Assembly: GCA_023129165.1 (NCBI GenBank)
Contig: JAGMCL010000109.1
Span: forward strand, 1-52,037
Direction of reading: 5' to 3'
Source: Caldifarciminota bacterium
Lineage (GTDB): Bacteria > Hydrothermota > UBA3073
DNA length: 52,037 bases
In this document: one piece after another, positions 2,504 to 49,818 of the stretch
Numbering within the stretch: the first letter of the stretch is position 1
How the letters are laid out: the number at the start of each line of letters is the position of its first letter
Notes under the pieces: model-generated
Told to the model about the DNA's origin: nothing
Seen by the model: only the letters and a program-made list of their open reading frames with translations
The model's database searches: none
Translations under genes and position numbers: made by a program

Positions 2504-2908
2504 ATGAAGCTTAAATCATTCAAGGAGCTTAAGGTTTGGCAGCTGTCTCATAAACTTTCAATAGAAGTTTCAGATCTTGTAAAAACCTTTCCCAAAGATG
2601 AGAAATACGATCTTGCTGATCAAATGCGGCGCTCGGCACGAAGCATTCCTTCGGCGATTGCGGAAGGTTTTGGTAGGTTTCACTTTAATGACAAGTTAAC
2701 ATTCTATGAAAGGGGAAATGCATCGTTATTAGAGCTAAAGAACCATTTTGATGAAGCCAAAGAGAATAAATATATAAGTGATAAAGAATACAGGTATTAT
2801 CAAAAAAGAATGAATGAAATAGGGTTTCTTTTAGTTCGAATGATGAGTAAGATAAGAAAACATAGGGATGAGTATGAAGTTCAGAAAAAAGCCTATTCTC
2901 GTAAATAA
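2504..2908 (+). CDS. Four-helix bundle protein (23S rRNA-IVP/S23 family), copy 1
   Basis: FKELKVWQLSHKLSIEV...FPKDEKYDLADQMRRSARSIPSAIAEGFGR. Confidence 0.9.
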   Translation: MKLKSFKELKVWQLSHKLSIEVSDLVKTFPKDEKYDLADQMRRSARSIPSAIAEGFGRFHFNDKLTFYERGNASLLELKNHFDEAKENKYISDKEYRYYQKRMNEIGFLLVRMMSKIRKHRDEYEVQKKAYSRK

Positions 2909-3135
2909 CAATTCCAGCGAACGAAGTGAGCTAACTTCCAGTCGCAGGCTAACTTCCAGTCGCAGGCTAACTTCCAATGCGAAGCATTAACTTCCATTCC
3001 GAAGGAATAATTTCCAGCACGCAGTGCTCTTTTCCAGCGAACGAAGTGAGATAACTTCCAGCATCGGAGATGGTATCTTCCAGCACCAACGGTGCTAACT
3101 TCCATTCACGAAGTGAATAACTACACGAAGTGAAT
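2907..3135. repeat. Array of about 11 mini-hairpin units: conserved TAACTTCCA linker plus sequence-variable short palindrome with GNA-type triloop
   Basis: Units such as ATGC-GAA-GCAT, TTCC-GAA-GGAA, AGCAC-GCA-GTGCT, CATC-GGA-GATG, GCACC-AAC-GGTGC, TTCAC-GAA-GTGAA. Confidence 0.9.
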
Positions 3136-3214
3136 AATGTCTATCCACAATCCGAAATGTTTCTATAAAATGGTCGCTGTCCCTGTTTTTCCTATTTTTA
3201 TAAAAGAGTCATAA

Positions 3215-4411: not shown

Positions 4412-4786
4412 ATGTATTATACTTATGTTTTGTTGAGCAAAGTAGATGGCCAATTTTATACTGGTTGTACGGATAATTTGAAAAGGAGATTTGAAGAGCA
4501 TAATAGAGGTCGTGTACAATCAACAAAACGAAGAAAACCATTGGATTTAATTTATTATGAAGCTTGCCCTGTTAGATACGGATCCCTTTCGCTATGTGCT
4601 CAAGAATTAGTTATGGAATATCGCTGTGAACAGCTCCGTTAGTACATGTAACTTTTTAATCTAACAGGGCTTGCCTTTCTAATGAAGATGCTTATCGCCG
4701 TGAGAGATATTTGAAGACGGGTAAAGGCAAACGTTATATACGAAATAGACTTAAGGTCGCTCTATCAAAAATATGAGTTGGAACGG
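4412..4786 (+). pseudogene. GIY-YIG endonuclease (UPF0213-like) interrupted by a palindromic insertion at about 4562-4675
   Basis: MYYTYVLLSKVDGQFYTGCTDNLKRRFEEHNRG...DLIYYEAC then, after 107 bp, ACLSNEDAYRRERYLKTGKGKRYIRNRLKVALSKI*. Confidence 0.85.
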
Positions 4787-37854: not shown

Positions 37855-38226
37855 TTGAAGGAAAAAGTAAAAGATAAAAGTTTTGGTTTTATGTCGTTGC
37901 CGTTTGGTCTAATTTCCGTGATCTATATTGCCCTAATTTTCATTCTTTCGGGTATTTCGGGGGAAATTGAATTGATAAAGAGGTTTAATCCGCTTAGTCT
38001 GCTGCATATCCCCTTATATGGTTTATTAACGTTTTTTCTTATATGCACCTTCTGGCAAAAGGGCAAAAAGTTATTAATTCTTGCAATTTTTATTGCTCTT
38101 TTGGTAGCGATTTTTGACGAACTGAATCAGATTCATATACCAGGAAGAATGGCATCAGGATGGGATGTGGTGATGGATGCGGTGGGGATAGGGATGGTGA
38201 TGTTATGCGTAAGGCGTAGAGCGTAA
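37855..38226 (+). CDS. VanZ-like membrane protein, copy 1; last codons run into the heptamer array
   Basis: DELNQIHIPGRMASGWDVVMDAVGIG. Confidence 0.85.
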   Translation: MKEKVKDKSFGFMSLPFGLISVIYIALIFILSGISGEIELIKRFNPLSLLHIPLYGLLTFFLICTFWQKGKKLLILAIFIALLVAIFDELNQIHIPGRMASGWDVVMDAVGIGMVMLCVRRRA

Positions 38227-38367
38227 GGCGTAGAGCGTAATGCGTAAGGCGTAAAGCGAGGAACATGGGGAGTAGGGCGTAAGGCGTAGAGTGTAGGGAG
38301 TAAGGCGTAGAGTGTAGGGCGTAAGGAGTAGGGAGTAGGGAGTAAGGCGTAGGGCGTAAAGCGAGGA
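38207..38367. repeat. Heptamer array A, 23 x 7 nt in register (GCGTARR, GAGTARG, GTGTAGG variants)
   Basis: gcgtaag gcgtaga gcgtaag gcgtaga gcgtaat gcgtaag gcgtaaa gcgagga acatggg gagtagg gcgtaag ... gcgtaaa gcgagga, directly before ggattATG of the four-helix gene. Confidence 0.95.
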
Positions 38368-38372
38368 GGATT

Positions 38373-38756
38373 ATGAGGGGCGATTTAAAAGGATATAAAG
38401 ATTTGGATGTTTATCAATTGTCTTACAAAATGGCTATTGAGATATTTGAAGAAACAAAGAATTTTCCTAAAGAAGAAAAGTTTTCGTTGACTGACCAGAT
38501 TCGCCGTTCCTCAAGGTCAATAGCGAGTAACATTGCTGAATCATGGGGTAAACGAATGTATCGTAACCATTTTGTAAACAAGCTCAGCGATAGTTATGCA
38601 GAGGCCAATGAGACCCAGACCTGGCTCGACTTTAGCCTTTCGCATAGCTATATGAATAAAGAAAGGTATGACTATTTCACTGATAATTATGACCATATAA
38701 GTCGAATGTTGTTTAATATGATGAAAAATCCTGAAAAATTTCTTTTAAAGTTATGA
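38373..38756 (+). CDS. Four-helix bundle protein (S23/IVP family), copy 2
   Basis: YKDLDVYQLSYKMAIEIF...FSLTDQIRRSSRSIASNIAESWGKR. Confidence 0.92.
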   Translation: MRGDLKGYKDLDVYQLSYKMAIEIFEETKNFPKEEKFSLTDQIRRSSRSIASNIAESWGKRMYRNHFVNKLSDSYAEANETQTWLDFSLSHSYMNKERYDYFTDNYDHISRMLFNMMKNPEKFLLKL

Positions 38757-38802
38757 TCTTTTATGCGATATACCATACTTTTCACATTTCTCTATTGTAG
38801 TT

Positions 38803-38867
38803 GCTCTTTACGCATTACTCTATACTCCTTACGCAAGATTAAATGTGCATACTGCTTACTGCATACT
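38803..38867. repeat. Heptamer array A' in inverted orientation, plus three GCATACT/GCTTACT heptamers
   Basis: gctcttt acgcatt actctat actcctt acgcaag = reverse complement of GCGTAAG/GAGTATA/GAGTAAT/GCGTAAA; then gcatact gcttact gcatact. Confidence 0.9.
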
Positions 38868-39254: not shown

Positions 39255-39803
39255 ATGACTAAAAATAAAGAAATTTTGTTTGTTACTAATACCCAAAAGG
39301 TGTTATATTTTTTCCTAAATAAGTCTGGAGAAGAATTTTTGGGAAGTGAGCTGGAGGGGAAAATCGGCATCAGCAGATCTGGTATCTATTATGCGTTGAA
39401 GGAACTTACTAACGAAGGATTCTTATGTCAGCATGTAAAAGGCGATATAAGCTTTTACTCGTTGAATTATAATAATCCAGTGGTCAAGCATCTTAAGGTC
39501 TTAAAAACGGTAATAGAAATTCAACCACTTCTTGAAAAACTAAAAAAACTCTCATCAAGAATAGTCCTTTTTGGTAGCTCTTCTCGTGGAGAAACTGTCA
39601 AGGATAGCGATATAGATTTATTTATCGCGACTCATAACAAAAAGGCAATTGAAGAAGAAATTACAAAGTTTGGGTTGAAAAAAAGGATACAGGCTGTTAA
39701 AAAGACAGAGCTAGAGTATGTAGAGTTGAAAAGAAGTGATCCTGTTTTTTATGAACAGATAAATAGAGGTATTCTATTATGGGAGGAAGAGGATGAATCC
39801 TGA
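39255..39803 (+). CDS. wHTH domain fused to MNT-type nucleotidyltransferase
   Basis: KIGISRSGIYYALKELTNEGFL...RIVLFGSSSRGETVKDSDIDLFI. Confidence 0.88.
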   Translation: MTKNKEILFVTNTQKVLYFFLNKSGEEFLGSELEGKIGISRSGIYYALKELTNEGFLCQHVKGDISFYSLNYNNPVVKHLKVLKTVIEIQPLLEKLKKLSSRIVLFGSSSRGETVKDSDIDLFIATHNKKAIEEEITKFGLKKRIQAVKKTELEYVELKRSDPVFYEQINRGILLWEEEDES

Positions 39804-40221
39804 TTTTGAAAATTGCTTGAAGAAAAACAAGATAAGAAAATTTAGCCCTGGAAAATCTCTCACAGGGAAAGAAATTGCTACTGCAGAAAGTGATATTAAA
39901 GAAGCAAAGGAATCTCTCGCAAGAAAGAAGTATAAATGGGCGACCATTCAGGCATACTATTCTATGTTTCATTCCGCAAGGGCGCTCTTATACAACAAGA
40001 ATTACAGAGAGAAAAGCCATTACTGTTTGATTATTGCTTTGAAGGTTCTTTATGTAAAAACTGGTGAATTACCTATTCGTCTTGTGGAGGGTTTACAAAG
40101 AGGCAAGAACTTGCGGGAGGACGCTGATTATTACAACGAGTGGTCAAAAGCAGGATCTGAGGAGATGATAAAAATAGCCTATGAATTTTTAGAGGTCGCA
40201 AGTAGTATTGATAAACAGTAA
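39793..40221 (+). CDS. HEPN-domain protein
   Basis: KYKWATIQAYYSMFHSARALLYNKNYREKSHYCLIIAL; overlaps MNT gene. Confidence 0.88.
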   Translation: MNPDFENCLKKNKIRKFSPGKSLTGKEIATAESDIKEAKESLARKKYKWATIQAYYSMFHSARALLYNKNYREKSHYCLIIALKVLYVKTGELPIRLVEGLQRGKNLREDADYYNEWSKAGSEEMIKIAYEFLEVASSIDKQ

Positions 40222-40249: not shown

Positions 40250-40610
40250 TAAATAAGGCGTCCCAGTGGAATAGTTACCCGATGAAATAGTTACACAATT
40301 CACCCTGTACATTATCACTACAGGGCAAGCCATAATGTAATATAAAACCTAATTACACCCTGTTAAATAGTTAACACATCTCACAGGGCAAGTATGGCAA
40401 GCAGGACAAGTCGCATTTCACCCTGTACACTACGCTACAGGACAAGCCATAATGTAATAAAGTGAAACATTACACCCCATTAGATAGTTTACACATCTCA
40501 CCATAATGAAATATAATAAACCTGATTACATATGGCAAGCAGGGCAAGTATGGCAAGCGGGATAAATAGGGTGTGAAGCGTAAGTCGTGAGGAGTAGATA
40601 AGCGATAAAT
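40250..40610. repeat. Cluster of palindromic mini-elements, 9-mer repeats and heptamer remnants
   Basis: CCCAGTGGAATAG, CACCCTGTACattatcacTACAGGG, CCCTGTtaaatagttaacacatctcACAGGG, GGCAAGTAT/GGCAAGCAG 9-mers, gaagcgtaagtcgtgaggagta. Confidence 0.75.
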
Positions 40611-48310: not shown

Positions 48311-48436
48311 GATAGACTACAGACAGCAGACCACAGACCGCAGACTACAGACCGCAGACTACAGACCGCAGACTGCAGACTACAGACCACAAACCACAGA
48401 CTACAGACCGCAGACTACAGACCACAGACTAAGGAC
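48311..48436. repeat. Heptamer array B, about 18 x 7 nt (TACAGAC, CGCAGAC, CACAGAC)
   Basis: gatagac tacagac agcagac cacagac cgcagac tacagac cgcagac tacagac cgcagac tgcagac tacagac cacaaac cacagac ... Confidence 0.95.
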
Positions 48437-48470
48437 TAAAAAATTAATTAATAAAGGAAGGAGGAGGATT

Positions 48471-48833
48471 ATGGGAAGGGATTATAGGAAGATTAAGGCA
48501 TGGAAATTAGCAGATGAACTGGCAGTCTTAATATATAAGTCAACAGGTGATTTTCCAAAGTCTGAAATCTATGGACTTACTTCTCAAATAAGGAGAGCAG
48601 CGGTATCTGTAGCTGCAAATATAGTAGAAGGAGCATCACGCAAAACAAAACTTGATTATTCCCATTTTTTATATATTTCAAGAGGTTCATTGGCTGAGGT
48701 TGGATATTATATACATCTTTCGAGAAGATTGGACTTCATTGATGACAATAAGTGTACTAAATTGGGTAGGTTGCAACAAGAAACTGCTGCTACACTTTAT
48801 GGATTGATAAAGTCTGTAGAAAGTGAAACTTGA
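48471..48833 (+). CDS. Four-helix bundle protein (S23/IVP family), copy 3
   Basis: MGRDYRKIKAWKLADELAVLIYKSTGDFPKSEIYGLTSQIRRAAVSVAANIVEGASR; GAGGAGGATTATG start context as in copy 2. Confidence 0.92.
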   Translation: MGRDYRKIKAWKLADELAVLIYKSTGDFPKSEIYGLTSQIRRAAVSVAANIVEGASRKTKLDYSHFLYISRGSLAEVGYYIHLSRRLDFIDDNKCTKLGRLQQETAATLYGLIKSVESET

Positions 48834-48852
48834 AAAAAAACCTTATATTTTT

Positions 48853-48887
48853 AGTCTATGGTCTGTGGTCTGTAGTCTGTTGTCTAA
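48853..48887. repeat. Heptamer array B', inverted orientation
   Basis: agtctat ggtctgt ggtctgt agtctgt tgtctaa = reverse complement of CAGACT/CAGACC units. Confidence 0.92.
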
Positions 48888-48906
48888 GCTTATCAACGGG
48901 GGTATT

Positions 48907-49443: not shown

Positions 49444-49818
49444 GTGGGATATAAAGGATATAGAGACTTAAAGGTATTTAAATTATCATATAAATTAGCT
49501 ATGGAGGTATTTGTAATAACAAAATTATTTCCCAAGGAAGAGAAATATTCGTTAACCGATCAAATAAGAAGGTCGTCTCGAGGTGTGCCTGCCAATATAG
49601 CAGAAGGATGGAAAAAAAGAAGATATCCAAAAATGTTCATCAGTAAGACAATCGACGCCGCTGGTGAAGCAGGTGAAACAGAAGTATGGCTTGATTTTTC
49701 GTTGGATTGCGGCTATATTAATCAAGAAAAATATGATTATTTTATCGAAGGATATGATGAGGTAAACCGGATGCTTTATGGAATGATAGGGAAGCCAGAG
49801 AGTTTCTGTGGAAGTTAG
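49444..49818 (+). CDS. Four-helix bundle protein (S23/IVP family), copy 4
   Basis: YRDLKVFKLSYKLAMEVFVITKLFPKEEKYSLTDQIRRSSRGVPANIAEGWKKR; GTG start. Confidence 0.92.
   Translation: MGYKGYRDLKVFKLSYKLAMEVFVITKLFPKEEKYSLTDQIRRSSRGVPANIAEGWKKRRYPKMFISKTIDAAGEAGETEVWLDFSLDCGYINQEKYDYFIEGYDEVNRMLYGMIGKPESFCGS

Follow-up and report, generated by a model that had tools for sequence, protein, structure and literature searches.

The array of short DNA hairpins that follows one of the S23 ("four helix bundle protein") genes of a Caldifarciminota bacterium probably represents one arm of a small mobile element, of which the S23 gene is the coding part and from which the second arm is missing. The window analyzed comprises positions 1 to 52,037 of contig JAGMCL010000109.1 (assembly GCA_023129165.1) and contains four S23 genes. 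S23 copy 1 (positions 2504 to 2908, forward strand, 134 aa) is an intact open reading frame matching the 23S_rRNA_IVP family PF05635 with an E-value of 2.9e-30 (105 bits against a cut-off of 33.8, covering positions 1-104 of 106). It follows an overlapping RelB/RelE-like pair (1938-2153 and 2146-2409), identified by eye. The array starts directly after the stop codon and spans positions 2909 to 3137 of the forward strand. It consists of 11 hairpins, located between 2917 and 3135, in which AACTTCC linkers alternate with stems of variable sequence closed mostly on GNA triloops.

The first hairpin (2917-2931) reads GCGAAC-GAA-GTGAGC and contains tandem G.A mismatches. It is followed by AGTC-GCA-GGCT (2940-2950), by a third hairpin identical to the second (2958-2968), and by AATGC-GAA-GCATT (2976-2988), ATTCC-GAA-GGAAT (2996-3008), AGCAC-GCA-GTGCT (3016-3028), GCGAAC-GAA-GTGAGA (3037-3051) and AGCATC-GGA-GATGGT (3060-3074). 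Hairpin 9, AGCACC-AAC-GGTGCT (3082-3096), has a non-GNA loop; it precedes ATTCAC-GAA-GTGAAT (3104-3118) and a degenerate last unit, TACAC-GAA-GTGAAT (3122-3135). To assess whether pairing is maintained while the stems vary, 15 units, 8 of them from this array, were aligned. Pairing was found in 94.5% of stem cells, with 28 cells changed on both sides against 8.5 in shuffled alignments, whereas sliding the partner strand by 1-3 columns lowered pairing to 26-38%. Since the units had been picked as hairpins, which favours them over the slid controls, the variety of the stems constitutes the stronger argument. The minimum-free-energy fold of the whole array does not recover all of the unit hairpins. 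No Rfam family, rRNA included, matched the window.

The first-pass annotation had noted that all four S23 genes abut a repeat array, that copy 1 differs in being followed by hairpins, and that four of four is hard to put down to chance, suggesting a link between the family and repeat arrays in general. The observation was confirmed and the proposed link is supported, but not for the reason given. Copy 1 lacks a clear heptamer array: in the interval where a left arm would be expected (2411-2503) no hairpin unit was found, only a 27-bp stretch of period 8 at 2441-2467 (score 9). The other three genes do abut heptamer arrays and each has the reverse complement on its opposite side. Copy 2 (38373-38756, forward strand) is bracketed by inverted heptamers at about 38202-38360 and about 38800-38850, copy 3 (48471-48833, forward strand) by CAGACTA-type heptamers at 48314-48439 and about 48847-48890, and copy 4 (49444-49818, forward strand) by degenerate inverted heptamers. 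Two nearly alike VanZ-like genes (PF04892; 37855-38226 and 41458-41841), each preceded by the same stretch, lie about 3.6 kb apart, a local duplication around overlapping nucleotidyltransferase (Polbeta; 39255-39803) and HEPN (39793-40221) genes, a likely MNT/HEPN toxin-antitoxin pair. The window also contains a dispersed repeat family with CTTGCCCTG / CAGGGCAAG motifs (596-670, 1545-1610, 4563 and 40321-40540), one copy of which lies within the GIY-YIG ORF at 4412-4642.

Abutting an array proved to be weak evidence by itself. In 20 stretches (about 370 kb) of the same genome, 73 of 180 intergenic gaps of 60 bp or more (41%) hold an array of period 5-12, as opposed to 3 of 180 shuffled gaps, and 49% of 121 non-S23 genes with gaps on both sides have an array beside them. 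Nearly all of these stretches come from contigs that hold S23 genes and are therefore not a random sample of the genome. A sharper test was obtained by scoring the upstream flank against the reverse complement of the downstream flank. With a score of 15 or more, 10 of 14 S23 genes of this genome (8 of 12 in one scoring, plus copies 3 and 4 from another) were found bracketed by mirror-image arrays, compared to 12 of 307 other genes (p 2e-10). In 30 loci of the phylum the figure was 23 of 29 against 3.8% of mismatched flank pairs, and in 80 loci from many bacterial phyla it was 50 of 74 against 8 of 122 neighbouring genes (p 6e-20). The repeat sequences differ from locus to locus but match within a locus. 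The threshold of 15 was set after examples had been seen; at 18, the bacteria-wide result is 36 of 74 against 4 of 122. As a mobile control, GIY-YIG genes were examined, and at most 2 of 9 have inverted flanks. Locus L064 (positions 1-230) of genome G014 of the phylum carries an inverted heptamer array (CAGAAAACAGA / TCTGACTTCTGA) with no gene in the loop.

Copy 1 itself scores only 8-10 in this test, its downstream arm being the only one present. A covariance model of the hairpin unit, R1, gave matches in this array and identified arrays in several other genomes of the phylum. Searches of viral contigs gave 53 pattern hits, none of which was a hairpin array on inspection; no hit was found in phages, and plasmids yielded a single 27-base chance match. 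The three S23 proteins nearest to copy 1 (61-68% identity; next best 47%) are encoded in genomes G014, G067 and G075. Interestingly, each of these genes has the same type of hairpins on both sides, in inverted orientation. R1 gave matches beside all four S23 genes of this group, which lie in four families of the phylum, and beside a split copy-1-like gene (locus L329) in genome G079; apart from one 20-bit match (L105), it gave none beside about 150 other S23 genes (p 4e-8). The model was trained partly on the G014 and G067 arrays, though not on that of G075. In a tree of 155 S23 proteins the four form a clade (support 100/98) inside a clade of 15 (100/83), whose other members mostly have hairpin arrays with the linkers TTACAG or GTGTCTTCA; the small number of columns makes the tree rough. 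The hairpin array is not an odd substitute for heptamers, but the array type proper to the clade of copy 1. The idea that all S23 genes have hairpin arrays was rejected: only one clade does, the rest having plain short-repeat arrays or none.

Counting generic 4-bp hairpins was too noisy to separate the clades. We therefore counted hairpins of the c(GNA)g or c(GNNA)g type, a criterion chosen after the loops had been seen. These number 48 in the 15 clade loci against 37 in 140 other loci (p 1.6e-10), although two of the 15 (L304 and L308) show none of the strict c(GNA)g hairpins. The hairpins face outward at both ends, with a polarity of 29 against 3 downstream and 19 against 6 upstream. Of 53 distinct triloops in TTCC arrays, 29 are GNA (p 2e-21) and most close on C-G, a motif that appears to form unusually stable DNA mini-hairpins; about 45% of the triloops are not GNA. 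Together with the mirrored polarity, these data point to DNA ends folded out of single strands rather than to an RNA signal, but this remains an inference.

Evidence bearing on mobility came from orphan palindromic arrays in one genus, found in genomes G079-G082 and G093. These arrays have ATGAAGGGAATTAAAAC at the centre, corresponding to the first codons (MKGIKT) of a copy-1-type S23 (compare the start of the G075 gene, ATGAAAGGAATTAAAACC). In locus L263 the reading continues MKGIKTFKDLKVL before a GIY-YIG frame. One deletion junction, within 3 mismatches, occurs 18 times (7 in G079, 6 in G082, 2 in G080, 2 in G081 and 1 in G093), and was absent from the reversed-pattern control and from the 11 other genomes searched. 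Flanks beyond 220 bp share nothing over 150 bp, except for one 155-bp pair. The left arms are mostly alike while the right arms are mosaic. These findings are best read as one deletion followed by spread, the orphan arrays resembling amplified, internally deleted (MITE-like) copies. No target-site duplication or clean empty site was obtained for a hairpin element, the region compared for an orphan element in genus g54 being too rearranged. Separately, an S23 unit 85% identical between two genera was found at different places of the nuo operon in genomes G000 and G144, and the S23-less site of G144 keeps both arrays. This shows movement or loss of the S23 unit, but not which came first.

What appears to be a natural swap was found in G079 (L280, reverse complement of 851-2000). 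Here, a copy-1-like N-terminal half (67-73% identity to the TTCC clade) lies beside a TTCC arm; a GIY-YIG gene interrupts it, and the C-terminal half belongs to the TTACAG clade (64-69%, against 32-36% to the TTCC clade) and lies beside a TTACAG arm that runs on into TTCC units. We read this arrangement as a recombinant whose halves kept their arms, although a misjoined assembly is not excluded. This locus (L280, 850-2000) and L014/L015 of the genome under study (contig C34, 47454-48051) contain S23 genes split by a GIY-YIG gene whose insert ends read like CCCTGTGTAATA ... TATTACACAGGG, an arrangement that looks like homing into S23. Other GIY-YIG genes of the same genome (L351, L352 and L355) lie within or beside tRNA-like sequences, as if inserted into tRNA genes.

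Taken together, these results led us to favour, with a probability of roughly 0.65, a model in which copy 1 and the array behind it are the gene and right arm of an element composed of a left hairpin arm, an S23 gene and a right hairpin arm, the two arms being inverted to each other. Copy 1, having lost its left arm, is probably a fixed remnant. We postulate that S23 protein, an Avd-like helical bundle, recognizes its own kind of arm and drives copying with host enzymes; this role is inferred without expression or binding data, and clade-specific arms may reflect plain co-inheritance rather than binding. The element encodes no recognisable nuclease or recombinase.

A less likely alternative is that the arrays are standing targets, arising between genes by slippage and template switching, and that S23 genes insert at the tips of such fold-backs much as IVSs insert at rRNA helix tips. 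Arrays without S23 are indeed common, the S23-less G144 site keeps both arms, so that S23 could be inserting into, or be lost from, pre-existing arrays, and the Coxiella IVS lies in 23S helix 45. However, hairpin type follows S23 clade, each half of the chimeric S23 has the matching arm, and the orphan palindromes keep the S23 start, so in this clade arms and gene seem to travel together. A device acting at the RNA level, in which the arms pair in the transcript and are cut by RNase III or stabilise or silence the S23 message, appears more doubtful still. Inverted arms would pair in RNA, and the Coxiella IVS has heptamers upstream of S23p in a stem cut by RNase III; yet the copy 1 array folds only moderately as RNA (z -2.4, compared to -3.2 as DNA), GNA polarity is mirrored at the two ends rather than set by the transcript, and gene-less copies appear to have spread. 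That the hairpins are ordinary 3'-end structures (terminators or message stabilisers) unrelated to S23 is very improbable: although the array of the window lies only behind the stop codon and some arrays elsewhere are not beside S23, the orthologs have the same arrays upstream as well, inverted, and the type is specific for one S23 clade. A chance neighbourhood of an S23 gene and a dispersed repeat, despite the 41% of sampled gaps with some array, can be dismissed as the least likely reading, given the presence of this array type beside all four clade members.

A broader and more tentative hypothesis, which we consider less likely than not, is that S23 genes across bacteria are the coding part of a class of mobile elements without a known transposase, whose ends are inverted arrays (plain heptamers or GNA mini-hairpins) recognized by the cognate S23 protein, and which seed many of the short-repeat arrays between bacterial genes. 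PF05635 genes are widespread and have no known function. Their association, across many phyla, with mirror-image repeat arrays, and that of one clade with mini-hairpin arms having amplified gene-less derivatives, gives the family a testable role in the recognition and spread of its own ends and offers a source for the degenerate heptamer arrays found between genes in many bacteria.

No report of the bacteria-wide bracketing or of the hairpin arms was found in the open-access literature searched. CPR rRNA insertions also encode 23S_rRNA_IVP (PMC11270868) and, in a different context, 23S rRNA IVP has been listed among CRISPR-associated proteins (PMC10910872). The closest known system is the 23S rRNA intervening sequence with an S23p ORF, exemplified by that of Coxiella burnetii (PMC4990558). 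There, the S23 ORF lies between inverted termini that form a stem, and direct heptamers, variable in number between strains, are found just upstream of the ORF. The IVS, however, is located in 23S rRNA and is cut out by RNase III, while copy 1 lies between genes; copy 1 itself, unlike its three orthologs and copies 2-4, is not bracketed by inverted termini, and the arms described here are arrays, in this clade arrays of mini-hairpins, with gene-less amplified copies. The S23 protein is related to the accessory protein Avd of diversity-generating retroelements (PMC10053308); copy 1 matches bAvd (PF22296) with an E-value of 1e-5, below the cut-off of that family, and its only PDB relative is 2gsc. 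The STRR heptanucleotide repeats of cyanobacteria seem likewise to be degenerate heptamer arrays lying between genes, although a link to S23 genes or mirror-image bracketing was not found reported for them in the papers searched. Finally, dispersed palindromic gene-less copies alongside a gene-bearing parent, and hairpin ends, are features that appear to be shared with MITEs and with REP elements and their RAYT (Y1) transposases. In the present case, no Y1 or other transposase domain is found in the element, although there are Y1_Tnp matches elsewhere in the genome, and the ends are arrays with variable stems, not one conserved hairpin.
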